In this document: positions 4,658 through 32,175 of the stretch, piece by piece
Layout of the letters: every line of letters starts with the position of its first letter
Numbering within the stretch: position 1 is the stretch's first letter
Notes under the pieces: model-generated
What the model saw: only the letters and a program-made list of their open reading frames with translations
What the model was told of the DNA's origin: nothing
Databases searched by the model: none
IMG/VR virus record: IMGVR_UViG_3300025030_001440
Coordinates: 1-38,837 of that record
Reading direction: 5' to 3' (one strand)
DNA: 38,837 bases
DNA from: a virus
Program-made: the position numbers and the translations under genes

Positions 4658-5573
4658 ATCATTAAGTATACTCATTCCCTCCCGTAATGAAATGTTCCTT
4701 TCTCAAACAATTGAAAATGTATTGGCGAATATCCGTGGAGATACTGAAATTATTGCTATTTTAGATGGTGCTTGGGCTAATCCTGTTATTAAAGATCACC
4801 CTCGTGTGACGCTTGTTCATCATTCAGTATCTATCGGTCAACGGGCGGCAACAAATGAAGCGGCCAGAATTAGTAGGGCAAAGTTTGTAATGAAATTAGA
4901 TGCCCATTGTGCAGTTGATGAAGGATTTGACGTAAAAATGATGGAAGATTGTCAATATGATATGACTATGGTCCCTCGTTTATATAATCTTCATGCTTTT
5001 GATTGGAAATGTAAATCTTGTGAGAATAGAACATATCAAGGTCCTACTCCTATCATTTGTGATGTTTGCAATAAATCAGAGGGTTTTGAACGAGTTATGC
5101 TTTGGAAACCAAGATTAAATCGTAAAAGTGATTTTATGAGATTTGATAATAATTTAGTTTTTCAGTATTGGAGAGCATTTGGTAAGAGACCAGAGGCTAA
5201 AGTAGATATTGCTCCATTAATGTCTTCTTTAGGAGCTTGTTGGATGATGCAACGTAAACGATATTGGGAATTAGATGGGTTAGATGAAGGGCATGGTTCT
5301 TGGGGACAAATGGGAACTGAAATAGCTTGTAAATCTTGGTTATCTGGAGGGCAACATGTAGTAAATAAAAAAACTTGGTATGCCCATATGTTTAGGACCC
5401 AAGGGGGGGATTTTGGATTTCCTTATAAGATTAGTGGAAATGAACAAGAAAGGGCTAGAAAATATTCCAGAGATATATGGCTTAATAATAAATGGCCGAA
5501 AGCGAAATATCCACTTTCTTGGATTATAAATAAGTTTTCTCCGGTTCCAAATTGGGAAATCGCAAATGTCTGA
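4641..5573 (+). CDS. Family 2 glycosyltransferase with inserted zinc knuckle
   Basis: The N-terminal SLSILIPSRNE and EIIAILDGAW give the GT2 nucleotide-binding core. KLDAHC at residues 85-90 carries the DXH metal motif. Unusually, residues 124-143 hold CKSC and CDVC pairs spaced like a zinc ribbon, inserted between the donor half and the acceptor half. The C-terminal half has LGACWMMQR and LDEGHGSWGQMGTEIACKSW, typical of the acceptor/catalytic side in polypeptide-GalNAc-transferase-like GT2 enzymes. It overlaps the preceding gene by 17 bases and ends the first cassette. GGAGG lies 10 bases before the ATG. Confidence 0.85.
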   Translation: MVNGDKSLSILIPSRNEMFLSQTIENVLANIRGDTEIIAILDGAWANPVIKDHPRVTLVHHSVSIGQRAATNEAARISRAKFVMKLDAHCAVDEGFDVKMMEDCQYDMTMVPRLYNLHAFDWKCKSCENRTYQGPTPIICDVCNKSEGFERVMLWKPRLNRKSDFMRFDNNLVFQYWRAFGKRPEAKVDIAPLMSSLGACWMMQRKRYWELDGLDEGHGSWGQMGTEIACKSWLSGGQHVVNKKTWYAHMFRTQGGDFGFPYKISGNEQERARKYSRDIWLNNKWPKAKYPLSWIINKFSPVPNWEIANV

Positions 5574-15342: not shown

Positions 15343-15498
15343 ATGTTTAATGAATTATTGGCAGAATCAGTGGCTAAAGCAACTTTTTGGGTTATAATTA
15401 TTTTTGCATTAGGAATCACCGTTAGATTTTTAATAAGGGATTACGTAAATTTTATTTTGGAGGATGTAGAGAAGAAATCTTCCCCAGAAGAAGATTAA
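15343..15498 (+). CDS. Small single-pass membrane protein, 51 aa
   Basis: A 51-residue frame starts at ATG 15343 with GAGGAGG at 15328-15334 as ribosome site, and ends at TAA 15496-15498. One hydrophobic span (ATFWVIIIFALGITVRFLI) lies near residues 13-31, followed by an acidic tail ending SSPEED. It sits tightly between terL and the next gene. It resembles in size the 40-residue membrane protein ahead of TerS. Function unknown. Confidence 0.6.
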   Translation: MFNELLAESVAKATFWVIIIFALGITVRFLIRDYVNFILEDVEKKSSPEED

Positions 15499-15500
15499 TT

Positions 15501-16049
15501 ATGACTATTCAAAAAAGGGATTACGCGAGGAAAAATGATATTGGTCCTGAAGGACAAATTCTTTTCTCACCGGGAGATAAAATGGGTAGAGAGGAATCCG
15601 CTACTTTGAATATTAAAGATTGGGTAAGTGATTTAGATGAGAAAGTAGATAAATTAATATCAGATGGTTGTAGTCATAGGGGAAATGATCTAGCTAAATT
15701 GGCTAGAATTGAAATAGTAGCAGAAGGATTTAGATCAGAAGCTGGAGAAATAAAAAATTCAGTATTTCAATTGGCTTTATCATTTGAATCTCATAAAACA
15801 GATGTGGTAAGAGCAAATGGATTATCAGATGGTAAGATATCTGAATTAAAAATTGGGGTAGATAATAAAATAAATAATTTAAAAATTGGAGTTTTGATAC
15901 AATGCCTTCTTTTAGCGGGTTGTTTAATTCTTTTTGTGGTTAAGGAATTCGTACTGCCGGCAATCAAAAATCCATCGTCAATTTCTTCTGTTCAAGAAAG
16001 AAATGTTCCTAATGAAGATGGGAATAGAAGGTGGGATGGTAGAAAGTAA
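15501..16049 (+). CDS. Tail-anchored helical membrane protein, 182 aa
   Basis: Not recognised as a known family. The first 120 residues are hydrophilic and mostly helical, with heptad-like stretches (VSDLDEKVDKLI, GLSDGKISELKIGVDNKINNLKIG). A single hydrophobic span follows (VLIQCLLLAGCLILFVV, about residues 129-148), then a soluble tail. It starts two bases after the previous stop, so it is likely co-translated. Neighbours are the terminase and portal, yet the membrane span argues against a simple packaging role. Confidence 0.55.
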   Translation: MTIQKRDYARKNDIGPEGQILFSPGDKMGREESATLNIKDWVSDLDEKVDKLISDGCSHRGNDLAKLARIEIVAEGFRSEAGEIKNSVFQLALSFESHKTDVVRANGLSDGKISELKIGVDNKINNLKIGVLIQCLLLAGCLILFVVKEFVLPAIKNPSSISSVQERNVPNEDGNRRWDGRK

Positions 16050-16111
16050 TCGAGATTTTGTTTGATAAGAATTATTATAGGTCTCAAGTGTTTTATAAAT
16101 GGGAGAAATAA

Positions 16112-19100
16112 ATGGCGACTAGGCTTGAACTCCTCCGTAAGAGTCCAATTACCAAAAATGCTATCGACGCTGTTTTCCTTAGAAATAAACAATTGTTAGG
16201 AGTAAATGAAGATGAAGTAATGCGAGAGCCGTATAGAAAATCAGATTTGGTTTATATTTGTATTTCTACTACGGCTAAAGCTATTTCTCAAGTTCCGTTG
16301 GTAGTCGTTAGAAATTTTGGGAGTAAAGGGGAATACAAACCCCTCCCTGATTCAGATCCTTGGTCTCAGTTGTTTTCCCGTCCTAATTATATTACTGATA
16401 GATATTCCTTTGTAGAGTCTGTGATTACCCATTTATTGCATGATGGGGAAGTTTTCATTATTCCTTATCCTCCGGGGTTGAATCCTCCTGGATCTCTTTG
16501 GGTGGTAAGGAATAAATTTATCCGTCCGATGAAAGATCCTAAAACCAATCTTTTGTTAGGGTGGCTTTATAATCAATCTGGTCAGTTTACTGATGGAGGA
16601 GTAATTCCAGCGGCAGAAGGTATTCCTTTACACGTAGATGAAGTTGCTAGGATTTATTTATTTAATCCCTATGATCCTTTGAAGGGAATGTCCCCATTAG
16701 AAGCTGGGAAGATGAGCATAGTAGTTGATTACAAAGCCTCTTTTTATACTTCAGTATTCTTTGATGAGGGGGCTTCTCCGGGGGGTGTTATTTCTACTGA
16801 ACAGAAATTAGGCGATAAACAATTTAGTCGTACTAGAGAGCAATTTGAAGCTCGTCATCAGGGATTTAAGAAAGCTCATAGAATAGCAGTTTTGGAACAA
16901 GGTTTAAAGTATACTCAAACTGGTTTGACTCAAAAAGATATGGAATTTGGAGAGTTAAGAAAACTTACTGCGGAAAGAATTTACCAAATTTTTGGAATGA
17001 AAAAAGCAGTAGTTTCGGTTATGGAAGATATCAACTATGCTTGTATACCGGCTACAGAGAGAGTGTATACTGTGGATAAGGGGGGAATTTCTATAGCAGA
17101 CGTAGAATCAGGGGACTATGTTTGGTCCTTGGGAGAAAATGGACCTGAGAAAAGCAAGGTGGTGGCTTCTTGGTATCAAGGAAAGAAAAAGATATATCAG
17201 TTGAATACTAGGAATTATAAACTTAGGGCTAGCTACGATCACCCCGTATTAGTTTTGCAAAAAAAGGTGGATGGATTTTTTAAACTTCCAAAACATAAAT
17301 ATGAGGGGGAATTGATTTGGAAGCCCATGGCGGAATTGAAGAGGGGTGATTTTGTAGTAGTATCAAAAGGACTTTCTATCGGTGAAGGGGAAGAAGTTGA
17401 TTTAGAATTTTGTAAATTTTCTGGGGCTTTTACTGGAGATGGTAGTATTTCTCAGGGTCCTGGGGCTAAATTAGGTTTTGTGAGTTTGGCTATCCCTGAG
17501 GAGAAAAAAGAGTTAAGAGATGTTTATTCTGACTTAATGACTAATTTGTCTCAGTATAAAAAGAATTTAAAAACTAGATGGGGACATAGCATTCGAAAAG
17601 GGGATTCTGTAATCATAAATAAGGAAAGATTTGGGATATCTTGCTATGGAACCTTAGTGGATCGTTTGTTTCAATTGGATATGGTAAAGGATAGTCATAA
17701 TAAGAGAATACCCCAATTCGTTTGGGATTCTGGTAAAGAGGGGGCTTTAGAATTTATTAAAGGATATATGGATACTGATGGAAGTATATATAAAAGTGGA
17801 CAATGTGATATAGGTTCTTGTAATGAAGAATTAATGAAAGATACGGCTTGTTTGTTAGATTATTTGGGTATTCTTCATGGCCCTGTTAATAGGATAGAAC
17901 GTGATACTAATTTTGGTCATCAGATTATTTTTTCTATATCTATAGGAAACCCCACTGAAATTGGATCTGATGATCCCTCTGATATAACAAGAATAGCTAA
18001 ATTAAAGAGTAATAAATATAAAACCAAGTTAGAATATGCTTCTGATTTAGGCATAGCTACTAAGGCTCTTCCCAATGGATTTACGGTAGCAAAAGCAACC
18101 TCCGTTGAGGAATTTGGTGAAGAGGATGTGTATGATTTAGAAGTTGAAGGAAGACATAATTTTATTTGTAATAATATTGTAGTTCATAATACCAGCCGCG
18201 AGGAAATCAAGTTATGGTGGGAAGGCACCAACATTCCGTTAATGTCATTAGTTACATCAGCTTTAAACTTTATTTTCTTTCGTCAAGGTTCTGATCTTAA
18301 ATTAATATTTGATGTTACCACTGTAACGGCTTTAAAAGAAGCGTTGAAGGAAAAAATAGAAACTGGCTATAAAATGTGGCAAATGGGGTTCACTGCAAAT
18401 GAGATCAATCAGCGACTTGATATGGGATTTAATAGCAAACCTTGGCGGGATGTCGCTTTTGTCCCTGTTAATTTGCAGCCGGTGGATCGTGCCCTCAATC
18501 CGCCAAAGCCAACAGTGCCAGCGTTGCCCCCTGCGCCTCCTGCCGAACCTCCTCCCAAACCTCCGAAGGCGTTGGGGGAAGGAGAGAGGATAAAGGAATC
18601 TGGTAATGATGCTAAGAATGAACAGAGTTGGAATAATCTTATTGAAAAAACAAAAGGATTAGAGGAAAAATTTGAAAAGAAAGTAACCAGAGTTTTTGCA
18701 GATATGAGGAAAAGATCTTTAAGTAATTTGTACAAAAATATTAAAGCTCCCAAAGATCTAGATGATGAGAATTTCCCAGAGGATTCTAGGAATATTTCTA
18801 GGTTCACTGACCCTATTTATGAAGAGGCTTTAATAGTGGGATTTACTACACTTTTAGATGATATAGGAAGTTCTATGATTTTTAATCTTTCTGATCCAGA
18901 AGCTTTAGCATTTCTATCTATGAAAAATATAGAGATTAAGGGAATTATTCAAACTATTAAAGATCAAATTCGAGTAGAATTAATGGAGGCGTATGAAAAA
19001 GGGGAAACCATAGACCAAATAGCGGATCGTATCAGGAGTGTCTTTAATGCTTCTGTTAGTAGGGCTAAAACAATTGCTCGTACTGAAATTATAGGAACGG

Positions 19101-19357
19101 CTAATGCTGGTAGGAATTTGGCGATAGGTAGATCTGGTTTCAAGGAAAAGGAGTGGTTTACGGCTATGGACGAAAAAGTAAGATTACAACATCGTTTACA
19201 ACATGGTAAAACAGTTAAAGTAGGAAATCCTTGGGTTATGGCAGATGGTAGTTCTCTTAGGTATCCTGGAGATCCTCAAGGTCCTGCACATCAGGTGATT
19301 TCATGCAGATGTGTAGAAATAATCGTGCCGGATAGTCATTACTTGATTAATGAGTAG
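16112..19357 (+). CDS. Portal protein with intein, fused to Mu F-like head domain
   Basis: The portal forms the dodecameric gate at one capsid vertex. Residues 1-310 and 694-about 800 are an HK97-family portal (YRKSDLVYICISTTAKAIS; VARIYLFNPYDPLKGMSPLE; NYATSREEIKLWW once spliced). A Pro-rich linker (NPPKPTVPALPPAPPAEPPP) leads to a helical part and then a Mu F-like minor head domain with ARTEIIGTANAGRN, WFTAMDEKVRLQH and a final PGDPQGPAHQVISCRCVEI. The total is 1081 residues, of which 383 are intein, leaving 698. Portal and F-like proteins are usually separate genes; here they are one chain. GGGAG lies upstream of the ATG. Confidence 0.9.
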   Translation: MATRLELLRKSPITKNAIDAVFLRNKQLLGVNEDEVMREPYRKSDLVYICISTTAKAISQVPLVVVRNFGSKGEYKPLPDSDPWSQLFSRPNYITDRYSFVESVITHLLHDGEVFIIPYPPGLNPPGSLWVVRNKFIRPMKDPKTNLLLGWLYNQSGQFTDGGVIPAAEGIPLHVDEVARIYLFNPYDPLKGMSPLEAGKMSIVVDYKASFYTSVFFDEGASPGGVISTEQKLGDKQFSRTREQFEARHQGFKKAHRIAVLEQGLKYTQTGLTQKDMEFGELRKLTAERIYQIFGMKKAVVSVMEDINYACIPATERVYTVDKGGISIADVESGDYVWSLGENGPEKSKVVASWYQGKKKIYQLNTRNYKLRASYDHPVLVLQKKVDGFFKLPKHKYEGELIWKPMAELKRGDFVVVSKGLSIGEGEEVDLEFCKFSGAFTGDGSISQGPGAKLGFVSLAIPEEKKELRDVYSDLMTNLSQYKKNLKTRWGHSIRKGDSVIINKERFGISCYGTLVDRLFQLDMVKDSHNKRIPQFVWDSGKEGALEFIKGYMDTDGSIYKSGQCDIGSCNEELMKDTACLLDYLGILHGPVNRIERDTNFGHQIIFSISIGNPTEIGSDDPSDITRIAKLKSNKYKTKLEYASDLGIATKALPNGFTVAKATSVEEFGEEDVYDLEVEGRHNFICNNIVVHNTSREEIKLWWEGTNIPLMSLVTSALNFIFFRQGSDLKLIFDVTTVTALKEALKEKIETGYKMWQMGFTANEINQRLDMGFNSKPWRDVAFVPVNLQPVDRALNPPKPTVPALPPAPPAEPPPKPPKALGEGERIKESGNDAKNEQSWNNLIEKTKGLEEKFEKKVTRVFADMRKRSLSNLYKNIKAPKDLDDENFPEDSRNISRFTDPIYEEALIVGFTTLLDDIGSSMIFNLSDPEALAFLSMKNIEIKGIIQTIKDQIRVELMEAYEKGETIDQIADRIRSVFNASVSRAKTIARTEIIGTANAGRNLAIGRSGFKEKEWFTAMDEKVRLQHRLQHGKTVKVGNPWVMADGSSLRYPGDPQGPAHQVISCRCVEIIVPDSHYLINE
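17042..18190 (+). other. Intein with LAGLIDADG endonuclease, in portal
   Basis: A 383-residue intein at portal residues 311-693. It starts with Cys (CIPATERVYTVDKGG), has block B-type ASYDHPVLV, and ends with the canonical NFICNNIVVHN followed by Thr. LAGLIDADG-type helices are FSGAFTGDGSI (D443) and FIKGYMDTDGSI (D556), with acidic residues intact. It sits inside the conserved NYA-TSRE portal segment, so splicing is needed for a working portal. It differs in sequence from the TerL intein, so the two were probably acquired separately. Confidence 0.9.
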
Positions 19358-20624: not shown

Positions 20625-21971
20625 ATGAGTAAGAAGTATATCAAGTCGGACAAGGGAGTTTTGATCCTCGCCACTCCGGAGCAGATCGCAGATGAGAGTG
20701 TCGAGAAATTTGAAGTGGAAGATCGTACCAACGTGAACCCCCCTGATCCCATTGCAGAGTTGGCAGGGATCGTTAGGGAGATGGCTACCAGTCTTAATAC
20801 GATCAAGGAGAAGGCCGATCAGCAAGGAGATGCGTTGGAGGCTTATAAGAAGGCAGTGGAACGGGGAATTCTCCCCCCGAATCCGCATGAAGGTCCTTCG
20901 GCATCCTCGGCTTCCCCGGAACTGAAGGATATCATGGGGCATTACGAACTTGCCTTCCAGGGCAAGGAACTTATGTCCAAAACGGTCCATCCGAATCATA
21001 CCATCGATGATAAGACTCGGGTGGAAATGGCGAAATTCTTCGCTCTCTTCCTTCGCCATACGTTGTTTCAGGACTGGCGTGCCAAGGACCAGTTTTGGAA
21101 GATCTTTGGTCCCCAAATCAAGACGGCCATCGGAGATTCCGGGAACGCTTTCCCTCTCCCGGATATCGTGGATTCGGAAATCCTTGCCTTCGCCCGCGAG
21201 GTTTCTGTAGTCCTTCAGTACGCCCGGATTTGGCCTATGTCTTCTGACAAGCAGTCCTTCCCGTCTGAGACTGCGGCTGCTTCGGTTGTCTGGGGAAATA
21301 CCACCAGTCAGTCGGAGCCGGGAGTCACGGAAGTCGAACTGGAAGCTAACGAGCTTTCAGCGTACAGTGTTGTGAAGAATGCCACCCTGATGGACGCCCG
21401 TTCTGATATCGTTTCTTGGTTGACGGCGGCTCTCGCGGAAGCGGCGGGGCAGGAGTTGGATAATCAGGCGTTCAATGGTTCCGGCTCTCCGTTTTTCGGA
21501 ATCCTTGATGCTACGGGGGCTGGTTATTCAGTTGCCCTTGGTGGATCTTCGTTCTCCGATATGACCTTTACTGATCTGTCGGAGATGATCGGTAAGCTGG
21601 ACGGTCTGCGGAAGCAGGGTGCTCGGTTCTGGATGCAGGGACAGATCCTTCATCTGATCCGTTCTCTGAAGGATAGCAACAACCGTCCGATCTTCTATGA
21701 TACCATCGGTCAGCCCACTTCCGGGACGATATTGGGCTATCCGTACTCGGAGGTTATCAAGATGCCGTCTACCACGGGGGCGGATACTGCCTTCCTGGCT
21801 TTCGGTAATCTGCGGTATCTTGGGGTTGGTCGTAGGCTGGAAGTTTCTACCCTTTCGGCAGATCCCTACGGCCTGTGGACCACCAACCGGATGCGGTATA
21901 AGCTGTATCAGCGTTGGGGCATGAAGATTGGTCTGCAGAATGGCTTCGTTCGGGCACTGACCTCTTCGTAA
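20625..21971 (+). CDS. Major capsid protein, HK97 fold
   Basis: 448 residues, with an N-terminal helical delta-like domain of about 100 residues followed by the HK97 core. Recognisable segments are PDIVDSEILAFAREVSVV, GVTEVELEANELSAYSVVKNATLM, LAEAAGQELDNQAFNG, FWMQGQILHLIRSLKDSN and the closing LYGLWTTNRMRYK-type region. CAAGGAGGAAAG gives a strong ribosome site. Codons are clearly richer in G/C at third positions than in the flanking genes, as in the tail tube gene, which fits very high expression. A hairpin terminator follows the stop. Confidence 0.9.
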   Translation: MSKKYIKSDKGVLILATPEQIADESVEKFEVEDRTNVNPPDPIAELAGIVREMATSLNTIKEKADQQGDALEAYKKAVERGILPPNPHEGPSASSASPELKDIMGHYELAFQGKELMSKTVHPNHTIDDKTRVEMAKFFALFLRHTLFQDWRAKDQFWKIFGPQIKTAIGDSGNAFPLPDIVDSEILAFAREVSVVLQYARIWPMSSDKQSFPSETAAASVVWGNTTSQSEPGVTEVELEANELSAYSVVKNATLMDARSDIVSWLTAALAEAAGQELDNQAFNGSGSPFFGILDATGAGYSVALGGSSFSDMTFTDLSEMIGKLDGLRKQGARFWMQGQILHLIRSLKDSNNRPIFYDTIGQPTSGTILGYPYSEVIKMPSTTGADTAFLAFGNLRYLGVGRRLEVSTLSADPYGLWTTNRMRYKLYQRWGMKIGLQNGFVRALTSS

Positions 21972-22152: not shown

Positions 22153-22314
22153 ATGATCCAAAATTATTCTTCTAAAGTTGTCCGATACATTTGTGGAAAA
22201 TGCAGTACCATTTTTTCTCCTTATGGGGGGAAAATTCCTGAGAAATGTCCTAAATGTGGATGCCCCGAATTTGAAGAAATGGTAAAAACTAAAACGGAGG
22301 TAATTCAAAAATGA
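22153..22314 (+). CDS. Mini zinc-ribbon protein, 53 aa
   Basis: I place the start at ATG 22153 because AGGAGGG lies four to ten bases ahead. An upstream in-frame ATG at 22084 lies inside the structured leader. The protein has YICGKC and KCPKCGC, a four-Cys rubredoxin/zinc-ribbon arrangement (CxxC-x17-CxxC), and ends in a charged tail. The next gene's ATG overlaps the stop (ATGA). It is first of three consecutive zinc-ribbon proteins leading into the second glycan cassette. Function unknown; protein or nucleic-acid contact is possible. Confidence 0.7.
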   Translation: MIQNYSSKVVRYICGKCSTIFSPYGGKIPEKCPKCGCPEFEEMVKTKTEVIQK

Positions 22315-22619
22315 AAGCCTCTTTTAAGTGTGAAAATTGTTTGAAGGAAACTAATATATCTGGAGAGGGAAATCGTCATTTAGGTTGCCAATCTTGCGGA
22401 TGCGGGGATATCAAATTTAATGAAGATGTTTTATTGTCTCCTATTTCTTTCAAAGATCCCGGAGACGTTTTTCCTTCTGTTCTTGTAAAGAAGGGAGAAA
22501 GTTTTTCTGGAAATCATCCTTTGGGTAGATCTTGGAAATTATCATTCCCTGTTCCAGAGCCTGAAACTACTCCAGTATTAAAGGTAGCTATTAAATCAAG
22601 GTTGAAATTGACTAAGTGA
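22311..22619 (+). CDS. Zinc-ribbon protein, 102 aa
   Basis: Starts MKASFKCENCLKET and follows with LGCQSCGCGD, giving a CxxC...CxxC zinc ribbon in the first 35 residues. The remaining residues form a beta-type stretch (SFKDPGDVFPSVLVKKGESF, then GRSWKLSFPVPEPE) without recognised motifs. It overlaps the preceding stop by four bases, so translation is coupled. Its location at the head of the glycan cassette and the matching ribbons in the next, 1350-residue protein suggest a shared partner. Not assignable to a known family. Confidence 0.65.
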   Translation: MKASFKCENCLKETNISGEGNRHLGCQSCGCGDIKFNEDVLLSPISFKDPGDVFPSVLVKKGESFSGNHPLGRSWKLSFPVPEPETTPVLKVAIKSRLKLTK

Positions 22620-22690: not shown

Positions 22691-25600
22691 ATGGATCATT
22701 TTACTATAGCTTGTAGTAAATGTGGAAAACAAAAAACTCTCAAGTTTCCTACCAGAGCAACTTTATCCTGCCAATCTTGTGGAAATAAATTATCTAAAAT
22801 AGCCCTTCCACCAGATGAGGAAAATAATACAATTATTTTTAAATGTTCTAAATGTGAAAAACAATTTCCTATTAAATCTGGAATTTCTACTTATCTACAA
22901 TGCCCTTCTCCTAATTGCGGATGGGTAATTTTAGAAACGGTGGAAGCGGTTTGTTTATCTAAAATAAAAAATTGTCCTGAAAAAGAAGAATCCAAATATA
23001 TTTCAGTTCCTATTTCTGTTTCTCCTTTGATAAAAAGAAGAAAAGTTTCTTTTGAATCTTCTGACACTTCTATAAAAGTAGCTATCCCCTATTATAATGG
23101 AGGAGATAGAATTCAAAGGGCTATAAATAGTTGGATTTATCCAGAGGTTGTTTTTATTTTAACTGATGAGGCAGTTATCCCTCCGGGATCTGGGGTCTGT
23201 AGTCAATTATTTACTAATAAAAATTCTAATTCAGAAGGATTAAATAATAAAACTCAACCATATTTGATAGACATTTTATCTAAAATGGTAGAATTATTTC
23301 CAAATGAAAAATATTATGGATATTTTAATTCCGATATCATTCTCCCTTCAGGAACTTCTATTACCAGTCTTTTACCAGATGTTGGGAAAAAGATTGCTTT
23401 TCACCATCGAAGGGAATATGAAGGATCTACAAAGGAATCTCCTAGAAATTTAAATAAAAAATATCAAGTATTTTGTGGTAAAGATGGATTTGTAGCAGAA
23501 GCATCTGTAGTGAAAGATATCATAAAAAATGTAAAAGATATGGTTATAGGAGGATCATCTTGGGATGATGGATTAGCTATTTGGTGTTTTAAAAAGTATG
23601 GTAAGGATAAAGTAGATCTTCGATATGGTGAAATAAACCACGCTTTACATCAACAAGTTTGGACGGCGGATGATAAAGAATCTAGATTTAATAGAAAACA
23701 ATTAATAGAATCTGGAGTAGATGAGACCACTCGTCATTCTTTTAATTGGTTTAAAGAGGCAGATGGTGCAACCATTAAAGAAAGACAAAAATTACTAGGG
23801 TTGATTCAACCAGGAAGAATTGGCGATATAATTATCGTTCTTCCTATAGCTAAATGGTGCCATGATTTGGGATATAGAGTGGTTTGGCCCGTTGCTTCTG
23901 AATATGTTTCTTTATTTGATTATATAAATTATGTAGAAGTAGTTGATATAGAATCTGGTTTATCTGGTTCTTATAAAAAATCTAAATTTATTTTGAAAAA
24001 TAGAGAAATTACCAATATAGTGGATTTAGGCATAGGTTTTGGTAGGGATGAATCTGAGTGGGAATCATCAGGATTGTCTTTTGATGAATGGAAATATAAA
24101 GAAGCTAAAGTTCCTTTTGAGGAAAGATTTAATCTTATCATAAATAGAAATTTTCAAAAGGAATTAGATCTGCAAAAGAAATTGGATTTGTTATACAAGG
24201 AAAATTATGTAATTACCCATTCTATTGGTTCTAAAGGTAAAGTAGATTTTGATGAACACGACTCCGTAGAAATCAATCCTGTTTCTGGATTTACGGTATT
24301 TGATTGGATCGGAATAATTGAAAGAGCTTCTAAAGTTCTTTGTACAGATAGTTGCATAGCTCATTTAGTGAATCAATTAGGGCTTGCTGTAGGTAGGAGA
24401 ACTTTTCAACCTTTAGGTAATTATTTTGGAAGAACGTTAAAAATGGCTGTTCCGAAAATCAATTGGGAAGGTGAAAAGGAAGCCACTAAGATTAAAGCTC
24501 CTCGTGTTAAATCTAACAAATCAAACTGTACTCTACTTGTTTCATTACCGGGTTTACATACCGGAGACTGGCCCCTTTATCCTTTGGGGGTAGGCTATCT
24601 ATCTTCTTCGTTGAAAAGAGATAGAAATGTATCATCTATACACTTTCAAAAAGAACGTCATGTAGATGATATTCTTCCTAAAATTTTGGCTAATTCTCGC
24701 CCCGACGTTGTAGGATTTACTTGCTCTACTTTTAATCGTGGAGCAGTTCGTAAAGCTATTCAATTGGTAAAAAGTATTCTTCCAGAATCTTCCGTAGTGC
24801 TTGGGGGAGTTCACGCTACGTATTTTCCTCAACAAATGATTAAAAATTATGGGGCAGATTATGTAGTTATGGGAGAAGGAGAAAATACCCTTCGATATTT
24901 ATGTAATGCTTTAGAAGAAAAAATAGATTTGAAAAATATTCGTGGATTATCTTATTTAGATTTTCAAAACGAAGTTGCTATTAATCCTTCCGTTATTCCA
25001 ATAGATAATTTAGATGATCTTCCTTTTCCTGATTATAGTTATGCAGAACAAATAATAAGAGATAGTAAGATGGGAAGTATCATAACTTCTAGAGGATGCC
25101 CCGCTCGTTGTAATTATTGCTCTACTAGTCATTATTGGGGACAAAAAATTAGAGTTCATTCCGTAGAAAGAGTTTTAGATGAAATTGAAAGACAAATAGA
25201 TCTTTATGGAATTAAAAAGTTATTTTTTCATGACGATACTTTTAATTTATCAGAAATACGAGTTAAAGAAATTTGTCAAGGCATGATAGACAGAAAATTT
25301 AATTTAACTTGGGCCGCTCATGGAAGGGTTCACCCGGTTTCCTCCGAAATGTTAGATGCCATGGTGGAAGCTGGGTGTCGTCATATTTGTTGGGGAATAG
25401 AATCTGGATCTAAAGAAATTCTTCAATCTATGAATAAAAAAATAGACTTTCAGCAAATTGAAAGAACGTATAATTTATGCACTAAATATAAAGATGTAAT
25501 GACTACTGGGGCTTTTACCATGGTAGGATACCCAGGGGAAACGGAACAAACTATAAAAGAGACTTGTAATTTTTTAAATAAAATTCCCTTGACGGATTCC

Positions 25601-26743
25601 CCCAGTTCCTCCGTTTTATACGTTCTTCCGGGGACTCAAGTTTATAAGCAACTAGAAGATCGAATTGGGGATTCATATTGGGAAGATACGGATGATGTAT
25701 TTTATAATACTACTGAACACTCTTTGGAAACTCTTCATAAATGGGCAGGAATGGTAGGGGGCAGTGGAAATAGATTACCATTTGATATTAAAAAACATTT
25801 TTGGGATGGTGTTTTAATAGGAAAAATCCCTTCTCCTAAACCTCCTTCTTTAGATTTTAAAAAAAATTCTGATTGCCCCTTACATTTCTTTACTATAGTT
25901 TTGAATGGAATGCCTTTCATAAGATACCATATAAGAATGTTGCAATCCCTTCCGTTTGATTGGCATTGGCATATTGTAGAGGGAGTAGCAGATTTAAAGT
26001 ATGATACCCAATGGTCAATAGCATTAGGTGGTAAGATAGTAGATAAAATTCATAATAATGGATTGAGTAATGACGGCACTACAGAATATTTAGATTTATT
26101 AAAACAATTATTCCCAAATAAGATTTCTGTATATAGGAAAGGAAATGGTAATTTTTGGGATGGTAAAGTGGATATGGTTAACGCCCCTATTTCATATTTA
26201 CCAGATAATTGTATACTTTGGCAAGTAGATGTAGATGAATTTTGGGATTTAAAAAGCATAAATAGAATGATAAAAATGTTTAAAGATGATAAAGAAAAGA
26301 TGGCTGCTTATGTATATTGTCATTATTTCGTAGGTCCAAAAAAATATGTAGCATCTATGAATACTTGGGCTACTTTACCGGAAGATTGGTTACGAGTATT
26401 TAGATTTTACAAAGGATTTCATTGGAAAAAACATGAGCCTCCGACGTTAGTGGATAAAGATGGAAAAGATTGGGGCAGAGAAAAATTTATATCTAGAGAT
26501 GATACGTTAAGAAATGGAATCTCTTTTCAACATTTTGCCTATGTAGATTATAAACAAGTTGAATTTAAGGAAATTTATTATGGTTATTCAGGGGCTATAA
26601 ACAATTGGAAAAAGATGCAAAATACTAATGGAGAAGAAATTAACCCTCGTAAATTTTTACCATGGGCAGGAGATGCTTTAGTGAAAAATTGGAGTGATTA
26701 TAATGGAGAAAAATTACTTTACCCAGGCGAATGGATGTTATGA
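22691..26743 (+). CDS. Multidomain glycosyltransferase / cobalamin-binding radical SAM fusion
   Basis: A 1350-residue chain. Residues 1-80 hold two zinc ribbons (C8, C11, C27, C30; C52, C55, C71, C76). About 128-350 is GT-A-like, starting IKVAIPYYNGGDRI with YYGYFNSDIILP as its metal site. About 368-600 resembles GT9 (LIQPGRIGDIIIVLPIAKW; CTDSCIAHLVNQLG). About 613-745 is a B12-binding Rossmann domain without the DxHxxG signature. About 790-1010 is a radical SAM domain with CPARCNYC (C803, C807, C810) and GIESGSKEILQSMNK. About 1060-1350 is a second GT-A-like domain with QVDVDEF (D1180, D1182). Enzymes of this radical SAM type often methylate unactivated carbons. A sugar-building and methylating multi-enzyme is inferred; one continuous frame argues against a sequencing join. 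Confidence 0.82.
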   Translation: MDHFTIACSKCGKQKTLKFPTRATLSCQSCGNKLSKIALPPDEENNTIIFKCSKCEKQFPIKSGISTYLQCPSPNCGWVILETVEAVCLSKIKNCPEKEESKYISVPISVSPLIKRRKVSFESSDTSIKVAIPYYNGGDRIQRAINSWIYPEVVFILTDEAVIPPGSGVCSQLFTNKNSNSEGLNNKTQPYLIDILSKMVELFPNEKYYGYFNSDIILPSGTSITSLLPDVGKKIAFHHRREYEGSTKESPRNLNKKYQVFCGKDGFVAEASVVKDIIKNVKDMVIGGSSWDDGLAIWCFKKYGKDKVDLRYGEINHALHQQVWTADDKESRFNRKQLIESGVDETTRHSFNWFKEADGATIKERQKLLGLIQPGRIGDIIIVLPIAKWCHDLGYRVVWPVASEYVSLFDYINYVEVVDIESGLSGSYKKSKFILKNREITNIVDLGIGFGRDESEWESSGLSFDEWKYKEAKVPFEERFNLIINRNFQKELDLQKKLDLLYKENYVITHSIGSKGKVDFDEHDSVEINPVSGFTVFDWIGIIERASKVLCTDSCIAHLVNQLGLAVGRRTFQPLGNYFGRTLKMAVPKINWEGEKEATKIKAPRVKSNKSNCTLLVSLPGLHTGDWPLYPLGVGYLSSSLKRDRNVSSIHFQKERHVDDILPKILANSRPDVVGFTCSTFNRGAVRKAIQLVKSILPESSVVLGGVHATYFPQQMIKNYGADYVVMGEGENTLRYLCNALEEKIDLKNIRGLSYLDFQNEVAINPSVIPIDNLDDLPFPDYSYAEQIIRDSKMGSIITSRGCPARCNYCSTSHYWGQKIRVHSVERVLDEIERQIDLYGIKKLFFHDDTFNLSEIRVKEICQGMIDRKFNLTWAAHGRVHPVSSEMLDAMVEAGCRHICWGIESGSKEILQSMNKKIDFQQIERTYNLCTKYKDVMTTGAFTMVGYPGETEQTIKETCNFLNKIPLTDSPSSSVLYVLPGTQVYKQLEDRIGDSYWEDTDDVFYNTTEHSLETLHKWAGMVGGSGNRLPFDIKKHFWDGVLIGKIPSPKPPSLDFKKNSDCPLHFFTIVLNGMPFIRYHIRMLQSLPFDWHWHIVEGVADLKYDTQWSIALGGKIVDKIHNNGLSNDGTTEYLDLLKQLFPNKISVYRKGNGNFWDGKVDMVNAPISYLPDNCILWQVDVDEFWDLKSINRMIKMFKDDKEKMAAYVYCHYFVGPKKYVASMNTWATLPEDWLRVFRFYKGFHWKKHEPPTLVDKDGKDWGREKFISRDDTLRNGISFQHFAYVDYKQVEFKEIYYGYSGAINNWKKMQNTNGEEINPRKFLPWAGDALVKNWSDYNGEKLLYPGEWML

Positions 26744-27537
26744 ATAATATAGATATTTCTCAGAAAACTTGGCATGTTAATAAGTACAAAGAAATGTTAG
26801 AAAAAGGACCAGAGGCTTGGGATGGACTTATTAATCCCGATAGTATATGGTACTTCTTGCACACAGATTGCATAGATAAAATTAAGGAATTTTTTCAAAA
26901 TATACCTCCATCTACTTTTCTTACTTTGGGAGATGGGTACTGCGGGAGAGAAGCTATTCATATAAAAAGATTTGGGTTTGGTCATAAAGTTCACGCTTCT
27001 GATTGGCAACCTTGTCTTATAGAATTGGCGCACAGTATGGGACTAGTAGATGAGTTTTCAAACCAAGATATGAATTCGTTAACTTTTGAAGATAATTCTT
27101 TTGACTTTGTTTTTATAAAAGAATCTCTTCATCATATGTCTAAACCATATCTTGGGCTTTATGAAATGTTTCGTGTGGCGAAAAAGGGAGTTATTTTGAT
27201 AGAACCGAGTGGGGATAATGAACCCCGTTATCATTTCAATAATTTTGAACCAACGGGAAATTATATGTTTGGTTTTTCATCCCACGAATTAGTTAAAATA
27301 GGTCTAGCTTACGGATTTAAAAACTTTGTAGTAACGTATGCTTCCGTTCATTTTGGACGACATAATATTGATAATATTAATGCAGGGAAAGTAGATGAGG
27401 AGAAAAGGAGATTGATAAATTTAGATAATCAACTTCCCTTGAAAGATAGGCCATTATTAATATTTTTCTTTTTGAAAGAAGAAAAACTTTTAGATGCTTT
27501 TAAAGATGAAAATAGATTTAAGAAAGTGAGGATCTAA
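26731..27537 (+). CDS. Class I SAM-dependent methyltransferase
   Basis: The fold is shown by FLTLGDGYCGREAIHIKRFG (SAM motif I, about residues 63-82), HASDWQPCLIELA, and SFDFVFIKESLHHM, typical of Methyltransf_11/25 enzymes. The C-terminal part (PTGNYMFGFSSHELVKIG) is typical of sugar methyltransferases near glycosyltransferases. ATG 26731 overlaps the previous gene by 13 bases; ATG 26740, overlapping the stop as ATGA, is the alternative start. A glycan is the likely substrate from its context; N-, O- or C-methylation cannot be told. Confidence 0.78.
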   Translation: MDVMNNIDISQKTWHVNKYKEMLEKGPEAWDGLINPDSIWYFLHTDCIDKIKEFFQNIPPSTFLTLGDGYCGREAIHIKRFGFGHKVHASDWQPCLIELAHSMGLVDEFSNQDMNSLTFEDNSFDFVFIKESLHHMSKPYLGLYEMFRVAKKGVILIEPSGDNEPRYHFNNFEPTGNYMFGFSSHELVKIGLAYGFKNFVVTYASVHFGRHNIDNINAGKVDEEKRRLINLDNQLPLKDRPLLIFFFLKEEKLLDAFKDENRFKKVRI

Positions 27538-27539
27538 AT

Positions 27540-28109
27540 TTGGTTCCCCATTATGCTGATTTTAAGGATAGAATATCTTCCGTAGAGGGCCTTTTATTTC
27601 CGGGGGAGGATGAATTTCTTTTTAATATGTCTGCCCAAATGCCTGAAGATGGCGTTATAGTTGAAATGGGTAGTTATTTGGGAAAGTCTTCAGTATCCTT
27701 GGGATTTCCTTGCTTAGGAACTAAACGAAAAGTTTACTGCATAGATCTTTGGGGAACAGAATCTTGGTTTACTAGTTGGAAGGAAACGATAAATAAATTT
27801 GGACTTTCTGAAAATGTAATTCCGTTGAGAGGATATGCTGGAGATATTTTACGAGATTGGGAAAAGTTGACCGGGGGAATAAAAATAAATATGGTATTTA
27901 ATGATACTTCTCATTGTCTCCCAAGTGTTCTGAACGAGTTCGTTTTGGTTTATCCGTGGGTAAAAAATGAAGGGGTAATGGCTTTTCATGATTATACTCA
28001 TGCATCTTACCCCGACGTAGCTAAAACTTGGGAAGTAGTGAAAACGATGTTATTGAATCATAAATCCATGGGATCAATTGTTTTAGGTAGAAAGGTTGAA
28101 ATCAAATGA
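27540..28109 (+). CDS. Class I methyltransferase (Methyltransf_24-like)
   Basis: TTG start with GAGG eight bases upstream. Motif I is VIVEMGSYLGKSSVSL (about residues 39-54), followed by KVYCIDLWG with the SAM-ribose acidic residue. A later NMVFNDTSHCLPSVLNEF and GVMAFHDYTH match the Asp/His metal site pattern of small sugar O-methyltransferases in this family. At 189 residues it is a single catalytic domain. It overlaps the next gene by ATGA and the three methyltransferase-like genes (26731-28789) are contiguous, which suggests sequential action on one substrate. Confidence 0.75.
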   Translation: MVPHYADFKDRISSVEGLLFPGEDEFLFNMSAQMPEDGVIVEMGSYLGKSSVSLGFPCLGTKRKVYCIDLWGTESWFTSWKETINKFGLSENVIPLRGYAGDILRDWEKLTGGIKINMVFNDTSHCLPSVLNEFVLVYPWVKNEGVMAFHDYTHASYPDVAKTWEVVKTMLLNHKSMGSIVLGRKVEIK

Positions 28110-28789
28110 ATTTAATGATGGTCGATGCTCTATCAACTTTTGGTAAGACTTTGCGAGGAGTTATTCAAGATGTTAAGCCTAAGAAAATTATAGAAACTGG
28201 GACGTATTTGGGCAAAGGTACTACCACCGTAATAGCATCGGCTTTGAGAGATTTTAATATTGACTCTACAAAATTTTACTCAATAGAAGTAAATCCTCAA
28301 TATTTTCGATCTGCATATATCCATCTTAGAGATATGGGTTTATTAGATTACGTGATGTTGATAAACGGATTATCTATATTCAGAAAACAACTTCCAAATA
28401 AAGATGAAATTAAGAAGAATTTTTTGGATAAAGAATGGCCCAAAGAAGTCTATATCGACCATAGTAAAGAAACTAGAGTTGATCGTTACTTCGAAGAAAC
28501 TAACTTTGATAATGTTCCAGAAGGAGTATTATTAACTTGTTTAGGAAAATTAAGTCAATCTCCTGATTTGGTACTTCTTGATAGTGGTGGTCATATAGGA
28601 GGGATCGAATTCGATACTTTGATTCCCGTTTTAAAGAAGGAATGTATTATTGCATTAGATGATGTTTTTCACGTAAAGCATTATACAAATTTGAAAAAAA
28701 TAGAAAAAGATCCTAGATTCAAAATTTTATATTTATCTAAAGAAAAATTTGGGTACTGTATAACTCATTTTCGACCGGAGGTAACTTGA
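28106..28789 (+). CDS. Class I SAM methyltransferase-like protein
   Basis: The 227-residue protein has KKIIETGTYLGKGTTTVIAS (about residues 26-45) as SAM motif I, KFYSIEVNPQYF as the acidic strand and DLVLLDSGGHIGGIEFD plus CIIALDDVFHVKHY as the later catalytic strands. This is the pattern of small methyltransferases acting on sugars or peptides. An insert of about 45 residues (112-160, charged) between them is unusual. The start overlaps the previous stop (ATGA). The substrate is unknown, presumably the same glycan as its neighbours. Confidence 0.68.
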   Translation: MNLMMVDALSTFGKTLRGVIQDVKPKKIIETGTYLGKGTTTVIASALRDFNIDSTKFYSIEVNPQYFRSAYIHLRDMGLLDYVMLINGLSIFRKQLPNKDEIKKNFLDKEWPKEVYIDHSKETRVDRYFEETNFDNVPEGVLLTCLGKLSQSPDLVLLDSGGHIGGIEFDTLIPVLKKECIIALDDVFHVKHYTNLKKIEKDPRFKILYLSKEKFGYCITHFRPEVT

Positions 28790-29805
28790 ATCCATTAAAA
28801 CTTTTCTGGGGAACGGTAACAACTGATAAAAACGTCGGAAACTTATTCGGCTACCGCACCCATAATACCATGCTTCGTAAATATACTGAAATGAGGGATG
28901 ATGTAATAATAGTTGGTACTATAGATGAAGCAGATGCATGTTTATATATCACCACTCCAGAAGTATTCAATTCCCGTCCAGATAAACCCACCTTTCTTTT
29001 TACGATGTTCGAAGCGACCCGTCTTCATGAAATGTATGCAGAGAAAATTCAGAAAGCGGACTTCATTTTAGTTCCTAGTAATTTTGTAAAAGGTATTTTT
29101 TCACCCCATTTTCCAGAAGATAAAATTTGGGTAGTTCCGCATGGAGTAGAAGAAGATTTTGGATTTGTACTCCGAAAAAGGAACCCAAAAAAATTTCGTT
29201 ACTTATGGATAGGTGCTCCGAATCCAAGGAAAGGATATCAAGAACTTATCTACGTTTGGGGGAAACTTGGTCTCGCTTCTAATCCAGAAATAGAGTTATA
29301 TATAAAAACAACACGTGTTCCTAACGTGACGATTCAAAAAAAGGGAAACGTTATTTTAGACAGTAGAATCGCTACTAAGGAGGAAATGATAAAAATTTAT
29401 CAAGATGCCCATTGCTTTGTTTGGCCAACTCGCGGTGAAGGATTCGGATTGCCGTTGGCAGAGGCCATGGCGACGGGACTTCCTTGCATAGCCACGGGAT
29501 TTAGTGGGGTGCTAGATTTCTTTGATAAAAAAGTAGGATACCCTTTGAAATATAAATTAGGGTTGATGGACATGACCTCTCCGATATACGGGGATATGGG
29601 TAAGGTGGAAGCGGCTTTCCCTGATGTAGCTGATTTAGTAGAGAATATGGTTTTTGTTAAAAATAATTATAAGCATGCCTTGGAAAAAGGAAGATTAGCA
29701 AGTCATCGGATAAAAAGTAGATTTACGTGGGAAAATTCTGCTGAAACTTTAGTCAACTCTATCCGAGCAGGATTGGAGGAGAATAGAAATGCCTTATGCC
29801 ACTAA
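28786..29805 (+). CDS. Family 4 glycosyltransferase
   Basis: GT-B fold retaining sugar transferase. TTG start overlaps the previous stop (TTGA), with CGGAGG upstream. The N-terminal domain includes VPSNFVKGIF and VVPHGVEEDF; the C-terminal half has YLWIGAPNPRKGYQELI and the donor-site motif RGEGFGLPLAEAMATGLP with conserved Glu residues. At 339 residues it matches the family. It ends the second cassette and overlaps the start of the connector gene by 17 bases, so the cassette is fully embedded in the late operon rather than a separate unit. Confidence 0.85.
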   Translation: MNPLKLFWGTVTTDKNVGNLFGYRTHNTMLRKYTEMRDDVIIVGTIDEADACLYITTPEVFNSRPDKPTFLFTMFEATRLHEMYAEKIQKADFILVPSNFVKGIFSPHFPEDKIWVVPHGVEEDFGFVLRKRNPKKFRYLWIGAPNPRKGYQELIYVWGKLGLASNPEIELYIKTTRVPNVTIQKKGNVILDSRIATKEEMIKIYQDAHCFVWPTRGEGFGLPLAEAMATGLPCIATGFSGVLDFFDKKVGYPLKYKLGLMDMTSPIYGDMGKVEAAFPDVADLVENMVFVKNNYKHALEKGRLASHRIKSRFTWENSAETLVNSIRAGLEENRNALCH

Positions 29806-30352
29806 AGTACAAGTTAAAGCATATTTGGAAATTAAGACTTCTGAAATTAGTAAGGATGATTTAATTGACGCTTTGATCGGTTTCTGCGATGAATTTATCA
29901 ATGAATATTGTAATAGAACTTTTACTCAGGCAGCTGTAACAGAGTACCACGATGGTGGATCAAATAAAGTATTTCTTAATAGATTCCCTGTAGCATCTTC
30001 TCCGGCAGTTCAAGTTTGGGATAGTTGGGATAGGTCTTATGCCAGTACGGATTTAATCGACTCCGATGATTATTTTGTAGATACTGAAAATGGTATCCTT
30101 AAATTTGATTATGATATTGGAGGATCTCCGGGAGCGGTAAAAGTTACTTATACTGGTGGGTATTCTACCATTCCCGGTCCTATAACTCAGGCTTGTATTG
30201 AATTGGTAGCTAGAAAATTGAAAGAGGGTCCTAGTGGAGGGTTAGGGGTTCCTAGTAGATCCCTTCCTAATGGGGGTAGTGTAACATTTGAAATTGGTGC
30301 TCTTCTTTCTCAAACTAAGATAGCTCTAGATGCCTACAGTGTATTACCCTAA
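29789..30352 (+). CDS. Head-tail connector protein (HK97 gp6-like)
   Basis: Connector that joins the portal to the tail. Residues 1-45 are helical (TKVQVKAYLEIKTSEISKDDLIDALIGFCDEFINEY), as in gp6/gp15-type adaptors. A middle beta part with DSDDYFVDTENGILKFDYD and VKVTYTGGYSTIPGPI is the classic Phage_connect/gp6-like signature, followed by ITQACIELVARKLKEG. GGAGGAG precedes the ATG. Its stop codon is overlapped by nine bases by the antisense tnpB gene; the insertion has left the connector frame intact or replaced only its last codons. Confidence 0.85.
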   Translation: MPYATKVQVKAYLEIKTSEISKDDLIDALIGFCDEFINEYCNRTFTQAAVTEYHDGGSNKVFLNRFPVASSPAVQVWDSWDRSYASTDLIDSDDYFVDTENGILKFDYDIGGSPGAVKVTYTGGYSTIPGPITQACIELVARKLKEGPSGGLGVPSRSLPNGGSVTFEIGALLSQTKIALDAYSVLP

Positions 30353-31558
30353 ATGAAGCAACTTTCGTCGCTTCAACATAGGATTTCCGGTTTCACGAGC
30401 ACTAGCAAGGACAGAGGACTTACGTCCTCTGCCTTGGCTGACGGTGCCTCCACCGGCAGTCACGGCGATCCCCGCCGCGATCATTCTTTGGGCTTCATTT
30501 CTAATATTCTTAGCGGCATTGACATCGCGGTCGTGCAAGGTCTTGCACCTATCGCATCGCCAAGAACGAATGTTAAGAGGCATCTCAGATTGAACATGAA
30601 GACAGACGGAGCAAGCTTTGCTAGAGGGGAAGAAACGATTCACTTTGATGAAACCTTTTCCTACCCTCTCAGTTTTATAACGGAGGAATTCAACCAAAGT
30701 TCCCCATCCTACATCGCTGATAGCCTTAGCAAGTTTATGATTCTTCATCATACCTTTAACATGCAAATCCTCGACGGCAATGACTTGGTTTTCGTCAACA
30801 AGCCGTCGAGAAATCTTATGGAGATAATCTTTCCTACAATTAACAACCTTTTCATGGGCCTTAGCTACCAAAATTCTGGCTTTGTTTCTAGATTTACTTC
30901 CTTTCATTTTTCTAGAAAGTTTTTTCTGTTTCCTTTTCAAATTCTTTTCAGCCTTCAAAAGATGGCGAGGATTATCAAATTTAGCCCCATCACTAGTAAT
31001 AGCAAGATGATTCAAACCAACATCAATTCCAATAACTTTTCCTTCAAAAGAAGGAGAAGGAATGGGAACCCCATTATCCGTCAGAATAGAAGCAAAATAT
31101 TTACCAGAAGGAACACGACTAATCGTAACAGTTTTGATTTTACCTATGATTTCTCTGTGAATGATGGCTTTTACCAAACCAATTTTAGGAAGGTAAATTT
31201 TATTTTCTACAATTTTAACGCTTTGTGGGTATTGAATAGATTGATTTCCTCTTTTAGATTTGAATTTAGGATACTTTGCTCGACGTTCAAAAAAGTTTAT
31301 GAAAGCTCGGGACATATGAAGACAAACGGATGTCAACACCTGACTATGTGTTTCAGAAAGCCAAGGATACTCTTCTTTAAGTTTAGGAAGACGATAAGTC
31401 AATCCAAACTGACTAAAACCTTTCCCCGTTTCTTGATAAACTTTTTGGGTTTCTGCAAGGCTATTATTCCAAAGCCATCTAGCACAACCAAACGCTTTTG
31501 CAAGAGATTCTTCTTGCAAAGCGGACGGGTAGATGCGGATTTTGGTGGCTGTTAACAT
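30344..31558 (-). CDS. tnpB: TnpB RNA-guided nuclease
   Basis: TnpB proteins are RNA-guided DNA nucleases, the ancestors of Cas12. I start at ATG 31558 (MLTATKIRIYPS), the normal family N-terminus; 35 in-frame residues upstream look like element end. The 404-residue protein keeps every RuvC residue: VIGIDVGLNHLA (D179), VIAVEDLHVKGM (E263) and HDRDVNAAKN (D345). The four-Cys zinc finger is intact (C316, C319, C335, C338). It therefore looks active. The last codons overlap the connector stop. The 3' end of the coding strand also specifies the omega RNA. It opposes all neighbouring late genes. Confidence 0.92.
   Translation of the reverse strand: MLTATKIRIYPSALQEESLAKAFGCARWLWNNSLAETQKVYQETGKGFSQFGLTYRLPKLKEEYPWLSETHSQVLTSVCLHMSRAFINFFERRAKYPKFKSKRGNQSIQYPQSVKIVENKIYLPKIGLVKAIIHREIIGKIKTVTISRVPSGKYFASILTDNGVPIPSPSFEGKVIGIDVGLNHLAITSDGAKFDNPRHLLKAEKNLKRKQKKLSRKMKGSKSRNKARILVAKAHEKVVNCRKDYLHKISRRLVDENQVIAVEDLHVKGMMKNHKLAKAISDVGWGTLVEFLRYKTERVGKGFIKVNRFFPSSKACSVCLHVQSEMPLNIRSWRCDRCKTLHDRDVNAAKNIRNEAQRMIAAGIAVTAGGGTVSQGRGRKSSVLASARETGNPMLKRRKLLHLG
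30354..30487 (-). ncRNA. Probable TnpB omega RNA
   Basis: On the tnpB strand the 3' end of the gene folds well. GGCAC near 30448-30444 pairs with GTGCT near 30402-30398. Inside, CAAGGC-AGAGGAC pairs with GTCCTCT-G(T)CCTTG around a GTAA tetraloop (30437-30406). A terminal stem TGAAGCGAC/GTTGCTTCA with a GAAA loop lies at 30375-30354. Omega RNAs of TnpB systems overlap the gene's 3' end and run to the element end, so this is the expected place. The 5' limit is taken from where a second copy (33866 on) begins to match. Confidence 0.7.
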
Positions 31559-31562
31559 GATA

Positions 31563-31576
31563 TTAGTATATACTAA
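31563..31576. repeat. 14-base perfect palindrome beside tnpB start
   Basis: TTAGTATATACTAA reads the same on both strands and lies four bases upstream of the tnpB start codon on its strand. It may be the left-end hairpin of the element or a repressor/promoter site for tnpB. Confidence 0.5.
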
Positions 31577-31656
31577 ATTCGTAGTAAGTAAAAGAAATAT
31601 TTTCTTTTGGAAATGAAATTTGTTATTCTCTTGATCTAAATTGAAAGGCGCAGAAA

Positions 31657-32175
31657 ATGGCAAACTCTTTCGAACTGAAATTCGTTCTCCCTCCGGGGAC
31701 TAGTGCTATTTCTAGATTACCTCCTTTGATTCAATCTAACGTTATTAGAGCTTTAAAAGATGGAATGCTAATAGCAGAAAGAATATCAAAAACTCAATAT
31801 TTATCTGGCCCTCGTCCAGAAAAATTAGCGGTAAAAACGGGGCTTTTGAGAAGTAGAGTTTTAGGAATTCTGGCTGGGACTGGGGGCGATCCAAAAGTAT
31901 TTGCTTCAGGTGTTTTAGGCGTATCAGGAGTAATTTATGCTCGTATTCATGAATTAGGGGGTATTACTAAACCACATCCTATTGAAGCTAGAAATAAGCC
32001 TAGATTAGTTTTCTTTTGGAAAAAGAAAGGAATTTGGATGAGCATTCGAAAAGTAAGCCATCCGGGGTCTAGAATCCCTGCTCGTCCTTATCTAAGACCG
32101 GCTTTTGATCAAGCAAAACCTAGCATAGAAAATTTGATACAATTGGCTATAAATAAAGCATACAAGGATAGCTAA
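31657..32175 (+). CDS. HK97 gp10-like head-tail protein
   Basis: A neck/tail-completion family protein (HK97-gp10-like). The signature YARIHELGG, followed by PHPIEARNKPRLVFFWKK and SRIPARPYLRPAF, is characteristic. Length 172 residues is typical. GAAAGG lies before the ATG. The tnpB element has separated it from the connector gene, its normal neighbour. It overlaps the next gene by one base (TAATG). Confidence 0.85.
   Translation: MANSFELKFVLPPGTSAISRLPPLIQSNVIRALKDGMLIAERISKTQYLSGPRPEKLAVKTGLLRSRVLGILAGTGGDPKVFASGVLGVSGVIYARIHELGGITKPHPIEARNKPRLVFFWKKKGIWMSIRKVSHPGSRIPARPYLRPAFDQAKPSIENLIQLAINKAYKDS

Follow-up and report, generated by a model that had tools for sequence, protein, structure and literature searches.

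A 1350-residue tailed-phage protein joining glycosyltransferase domains and a cobalamin-binding radical SAM module: a probable glycan-assembly enzyme

A virus-encoded multidomain fusion and its closest described counterparts

The algal virus PBCV-1 encodes two multidomain proteins that build the glycan of its major capsid protein: A064R (638 aa), which comprises two glycosyltransferase (GT) domains and an O-methyltransferase and also methylates, and A111/114R (860 aa), which comprises three GT domains (PMC7826918). As far as the citing papers relate, GT genes of mycobacteriophage Che8 and others decorate capsid or tail proteins, and these are separate genes, reported near the 3′ end of the genome in Maravista (Freeman et al. 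2023, cited in PMC11256854 and PMC12619734). Here, we describe an open reading frame (ORF) of 1350 codons on the plus strand of IMG/VR virus record IMGVR_UViG_3300025030_001440 (38,837 nucleotides, analysed at its full length of 38.8 kb and hereafter the window), a single open frame at positions 22691–26743 that joins two zinc ribbons, a GT-A-like domain (GTA1), a GT9-like domain, a cobalamin (B12)-binding radical S-adenosylmethionine (SAM) module and a C-terminal GT2-type domain (GT2C). We know of no radical SAM module in mycobacteriophage virion glycosylation, where, unlike here, the GTs are not fused.

A064R and A111/114R provide the best functional analogy for this fusion, as both place several GT domains in one virus-encoded chain and A064R, like the phage protein, adds a methyltransferase-class module. 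The first domain of A064R also resembles the predicted fold of GTA1 (Z 10.1), but we claim no homology, the GT-A fold being all that is shared. PBCV-1 belongs to an unrelated lineage, its methyltransferase is an ordinary SAM-dependent O-methyltransferase, and its proteins lack the zinc ribbons and the cobalamin and iron–sulphur module of the phage fusion; capsid glycan is their established product, whereas for the phage protein it would be a putative one. For the radical SAM module, the closest parallels are TsrM, CysS, TokK, GenK, GenD1 and MoeK5, in which a B12 Rossmann domain likewise precedes a radical SAM barrel with a CxxxCxxC motif. GenK and GenD1 act on sugar carbons (PMC4340712), as does MoeK5 (PMC8992657). 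All six are stand-alone enzymes, in contrast to the phage module, which is embedded between GTs and shares about 17–24% identity with solved structures.

The fusion is neither a chance ORF nor a chimera, because two further metagenome assemblies hold identical copies (the whole protein in L002, and 100% identity up to the contig end in L003) and a diverged homologue of 1354 aa in L012 keeps the same module order (58% in the N-terminal half, 64% in the C-terminal half). Sequence differences across three lineages, sorted by codon position, follow the pattern position 2 < position 1 < position 3 in all modules, indicating constraint, which is similar on the B12/radical SAM module and on the GTs. 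We found nothing in favour of an assembly artefact, which the first-pass annotation of this sequence had named as a possible refutation, and regard its probability as negligible.

Domains of the fusion

The cobalamin-dependent radical SAM identity of the central module (aa ~611–1050) is supported. Pfam profiles matched B12-binding (2e-19, aa 629–735) and Radical_SAM (6e-23, aa 797–962), and the cluster motif CPARCNYC, of the CxxxCxxC type, lies in the barrel behind the B12 Rossmann domain and is kept in the window, L004, L012 and SF3. The closest folds were TsrM (Z 19.4, root-mean-square deviation (rmsd) 6.2, 350 aligned residues), OxsB (17.6), CysS (16.3), TokK (16.1) and MgmA (14.7), although this part of the model is of mixed confidence; by sequence profile the nearest solved structures were OxsB, AprD4, 9ccb (MgmA), TsrM and CysS. 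No DxHxxG motif was found in the B12 domain, as expected for a His-off binder such as TsrM, whose cobalamin binding is of that type (PMC8992657).

Structure prediction yielded GT folds in the segments on either side of this module, with matches to GT-B heptosyltransferases and GT-A enzymes; the AlphaFold2 (AF2) models were built on shallow alignments (16 and 19 rows). The GT9-like domain was well predicted and adopts a GT-B-like fold resembling the GT9 heptosyltransferases WaaF, WaaC and TibC and structure 3tov at Z ~12 (1psw, WaaF: Z 12.4, rmsd 3.7, 218 aligned; 3tov: Z 12.2, 225 aligned), with a GRIGD-type N-terminal and a DSCxAHL-type C-terminal motif, at 9–12% identity. GT2C, modelled at a predicted local distance difference test score (pLDDT) of about 90, belongs with GT2 by its DxD motif, its GT-A fold and the Glycos_transf_2 profile (PF00535), which matches 12 of 16 members of its alignment (best 2.9e-11) and the window itself below cut-off (aa 1126–1244, 0.002, 18.4 bits). 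Its fold neighbours include ThuS/SunS, RmlT and SpsA (ThuS: Z 13.7, rmsd 2.9, 173 aligned), and the SunS/ThuS protein S-glycosyltransferases and other GT2-type enzymes match at Z 12.5–13.7, but at low identity (11–16%). GTA1 is the least supported of the domains: Pfam gave no match, and its GT-A-like fold (Z 10–11 against heparosan synthase, GpgS and A064R domain 1) includes stretches of pLDDT 33–63, although its NSD motif occurs in eight lineages.

The eight ribbon cysteines (8, 11, 27, 30; 52, 55, 71, 76) are invariant in six lineages. The first-pass annotation had these ribbons echo two small ribbon proteins just upstream. With the small correction that the two proteins are those at 22153–22314 and 22311–22619, the echo is real, because the latter is related to the fusion ribbons (hhalign E 2e-8).

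Each domain of the proposed architecture, in the order proposed by that annotation, is thus backed by a profile, a motif or a predicted fold. It had known of no described protein with this order, and no similar architecture emerged from the annotated phage collection, where four weak matches all fell on the radical SAM module, or from other viral relatives of that module. Among the matches listed, 80 viral loci carried such relatives, and the 74 outside the fusion lineage (L127–L200) were all stand-alone ORFs of ≤720 aa, lacking the GT domains that we modelled, the nearest (L127–L133) at 29–32% identity. Novelty rests on these collection searches and on open-access literature; the searches were made by pattern, so that other fused B12-radical SAM/GT proteins could have escaped, and the open-access literature on phage B12/radical SAM with GTs held nothing relevant, which does not prove absence elsewhere. 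The fusion protein matched no PHROGs family.

Table 1. Coordinates of the fusion, its domains and neighbouring genes in the window
Feature	Position	Strand	Evidence or remark
1350-aa fusion ORF, ZnR-GTA1-GT9-B12/rSAM-GT2C (ZnR, zinc ribbon; rSAM, radical SAM)	22691..26743	+	Conserved in L002, L003, L012
Two zinc ribbons, aa 1–90, 8 invariant Cys	22691..22960	+	AF2 pLDDT ~76–93
GTA1, GT-A-like, aa ~126–350; NSD at aa 213–215 (nt 23327–23335)	23066..23740	+	Predicted fold, Z 10–11, partly low pLDDT
GT9-like GT-B domain, aa 366–600	23786..24490	+	Predicted fold, 1psw Z 12.4, 3tov Z 12.2
B12-binding Rossmann domain, aa ~614–745, no DxHxxG	24530..24925	+	Pfam, fold
Radical SAM barrel, aa 790–965; CPARCNYC at aa 803–810 (nt 25097–25120)	25058..25585	+	Pfam, fold, motif
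GT2C, GT-A/GT2-type, aa 1062–1350; DVD at aa 1180–1182	25874..26740	+	Fold, motif, profile in relatives
Major head protein, immediately upstream	20625..21971	+	PHROG 10, 7e-36
Small zinc-ribbon protein 1, 53 aa	22153..22314	+	Sequence reading; ribosome-binding site AGGAGGG upstream
Small zinc-ribbon protein 2, 102 aa	22311..22619	+	Conserved directly upstream of fusion in L004, L007, L012, L013, L014
SAM methyltransferase (Methyltransf_11), overlapping fusion stop	26731..27537	+	
Methyltransf_24 protein	27540..28109	+	
Methyltransf_24-like protein	28106..28789	+	At cut-off; homologues beside cassette in L004, L012, L021, L031
GT4 glycosyltransferase	28786..29805	+	
Head-tail connector, right border of glycan cassette	29789..30352	+	PHROG 442, 3e-19

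Relatives and the shuffling of modules

Related phages carry the same modules in several arrangements. In L004–L006 (64%), a sister lineage, the first four modules form an ORF of 1058 aa and GT2C has its own ORF, preceded by the ribosome-binding site AAAGGAGATAAATTG. Four lineages (L007/L008, L013, L014 and L022) lack the radical SAM module, their GT9 being fused directly to GT2C, and L021 retains GTA1-GT9 only. L116, a phage contig binned in a Bathyarchaeota metagenome-assembled genome, encodes a four-GT fusion of 1072 aa in the order GT9-GTA1-GT9-GT2C (L116:9089–12307), whose extra N-terminal domain matches Pfam GT9 (PF01075); its capsid gene is unrelated, and the fusion lies inside structural genes, adjoining a polysaccharide pyruvyl transferase. 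In environmental T4-like phages, the GT9 gene overlaps that of GT2C next to it, and a GTA1-like gene often comes first (profile E 3e-10 to 5e-3), so that gene order mirrors domain order; their clusters also hold GT11, GDP-mannose dehydratase, sugar epimerases and methyltransferases. The architecture is therefore modular, ranging from separate genes to fused GTs, to fusions with an inserted radical SAM module, to those from which GT2C has split off again. The suggestion that synthesis and methylation proceed in one polypeptide accordingly needs relaxing: L004–L006 encode the last GT on its own and four lineages do without the radical SAM module, so a single chain is not essential.

A tree of GTA1 and GT9 grouped the three lineages bearing the radical SAM module (support 83/88) among those without it, with moderate branch support, and the head-protein tree did not resolve them. 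The simplest account of these sequences would be a single insertion of the radical SAM module, followed by fission of GT2C in the L004 line.

Other GT and radical SAM genes occur in this phage group. The sister phage L119 (a 90-kb record) encodes a second GT/methyltransferase fusion, a GT4-methyltransferase-GT2 protein of 990 aa (15440–18415), beside which stands a second radical SAM gene with no B12 domain match (L119:18936–19658); a nucleotide-sugar epimerase/dehydratase is also encoded. In L120, a nucleotide-sugar epimerase/dehydratase (7424–9691) is split by an intein with a LAGLIDADG domain, near ORFs that by eye resemble radical SAM genes with inteins cutting near the Cys motif.

Genomic setting, acceptor and chemistry

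Genes for a terminase, a portal, a protease, an HK97-type head protein and a connector identify the window as part of a tailed phage, and one strand carries nearly all of its major genes. The head protein is followed by the two zinc-ribbon ORFs, the fusion, three methyltransferases, the GT4 gene and the head-tail connector, and in HK97-type relatives, too, the locus lies between the genes for capsid and head-tail connector and has methyltransferases and a GT4 as neighbours. An N-acetylmuramoyl-L-alanine amidase encoded in the window suggests a bacterial host; an archaeal host, hinted at by the ribbons and the binning of L116, was rejected, given the amidase and possible contamination of the L116 bin.

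Domains, relatives and neighbours all point to glycan synthesis, which is very probably what the fusion does, as the first-pass annotation had proposed. Our favoured overall interpretation, held with somewhat less assurance, is a multi-GT glycan-assembly enzyme with a sugar-tailoring B12-radical SAM module. That the module acts on a sugar of this glycan is likely, given its insertion between GTs and the sugar context of its relative L127, whose gene sits in a phage sugar-nucleotide cluster with a DegT aminotransferase, two GDP-mannose dehydratase-family genes, epimerases, GT2 and a GT1-like gene. C-methylation is the reaction we lean towards by analogy, as the class is best known for it and GenK, GenD1 and MoeK5 set a precedent on sugars. 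Several observations weigh against this interpretation: GTA1 depends on a model of partly low confidence; the GT9-like domain is short (~235 aa against 300–350 in heptosyltransferases, about 100 residues fewer) and has no Pfam match, PF01075 being absent from the window matches up to E 1 and from the 25 of 27 families listed for 19 members; NCBIfam B12-radical SAM equivalogs (PhpK, ApyD, BchE, HpnJ and others) score below cut-off (best 182 bits against 600); the unfused genes of T4-like phages lie outside the structural module; and genomic position is weak evidence for an acceptor.

With that caveat, the fixed location within the structural operon makes a virion protein the likelier acceptor, which we judge an even call. 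Modification of a host surface glycan (lipopolysaccharide (LPS), capsule or wall polymer) that blocks superinfection or aids release is a less probable alternative. GT9 enzymes are typically LPS heptosyltransferases, the fold neighbours of GT2C include the wall-polymer GTs RmlT, TarP and TarS, and the sugar clusters that hold the T4-like relatives are not part of structural modules; we regard those relatives as neutral on the acceptor. Yet the fixed capsid–connector location in HK97-type relatives, and a position among structural genes in an unrelated phage, suggest late co-expression with the virion, which is late for superinfection exclusion, and no membrane anchor was recognised in the sequence by eye. 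Glycosylation of phage DNA bases is far less plausible still: phage GTs can modify DNA (Pyle 2024, as cited in PMC12619734), but the cassette lies in a late structural operon and no thymidylate synthase-type gene (base hydroxymethylase) occurs in the 90-kb and 52-kb sister records, which may be fragments.

Regarding chemistry, members of the same enzyme class also contract rings (OxsB), carry out dehydration-type reactions (AprD4) or cyclise (BchE). The module might act on a sugar without methyl transfer, by deoxygenation, epimerisation, ring contraction or another rearrangement in which cobalamin plays a different role. The best solved structures by sequence profile are indeed OxsB and the aminoglycoside diol dehydratase AprD4, and NCBIfam profiles for BchE and HpnJ score about level with the methylase profiles, but the top fold match, TsrM, is a methylase, and a typical B12 domain is kept, whereas that of AprD4 is degenerate. 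Well-studied members of the class are also mostly methylases (PMC8992657), and we consider a non-methylating reaction unlikely, if worth bearing in mind. More improbable is modification of a protein side chain in a capsid or ribbon protein, as by MgmA or the C-methylases of ribosomally synthesised and post-translationally modified peptides (RiPPs), with fusion to GTs serving co-localisation on the substrate; in its favour are the fold match to MgmA and a score of 1e-49 with the ApyD RiPP profile, but the insertion between two GT domains and the sugar-nucleotide cluster around L127 speak against it.

Between terS and terL, the window holds another glycan block (2488–5573), with GT2, a rhamnosyl O-methyltransferase/CmcI-like gene (1e-43), a GT-like ORF and a GT2 containing a zinc ribbon. 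A mucin-like Ser/Pro/Glu repeat protein of 546 aa is encoded at 8556–10196, with 38 copies of a 40-nt repeat unit; it was rejected as an obligatory acceptor, as no Ser-rich ORF was found in the sister-record stretches read, the terS–terL interval included. Elsewhere, the portal ORF (16112–19357) contains an intein (Intein_splicing 2e-14, LAGLIDADG) and corresponds to insert-free portal ORFs of 702–706 aa in L004–L008, the large terminase ORF (12576–15329) holds a LAGLIDADG insert, and an IS200/605 OrfB/TnpB-like gene with a Cas12f1-like zinc-ribbon domain (30344–31663, −) is inserted between connector and tail genes.

Under the favoured interpretation of a late-expressed, modular glycan-assembly enzyme, the GT-A, GT-B and GT-A domains would in turn each transfer a sugar from a nucleotide-sugar donor to a single acceptor, and the zinc ribbons, kin of the small upstream ribbon protein, may bind either this acceptor or a partner. 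In the one clade that has it, the cobalamin radical SAM module would tailor one of the sugars, most likely by transferring the methyl group of methylcobalamin to an unreactive carbon as in GenK, GenD1 and MoeK5, and the neighbouring methyltransferases and GT4 would finish the glycan. A bolder, and in our estimation doubtful, extension is that the phage decorates its own virion with a C-methylated (branched-carbon) glycan through a single-chain assembly line with a B12 radical SAM methylase between GTs, which would be the first case of a virus particle modified in a B12-dependent manner. Thanks to the module shuffling seen in this phage glycan machinery, what the radical module does can be tested on natural homologues that either carry or lack it, the latter acting as ready-made controls. 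Should the glycan be placed on the virion, B12 and radical chemistry would be tied to the decoration of phage coats, extending the principle of chlorovirus A064R to tailed phages.

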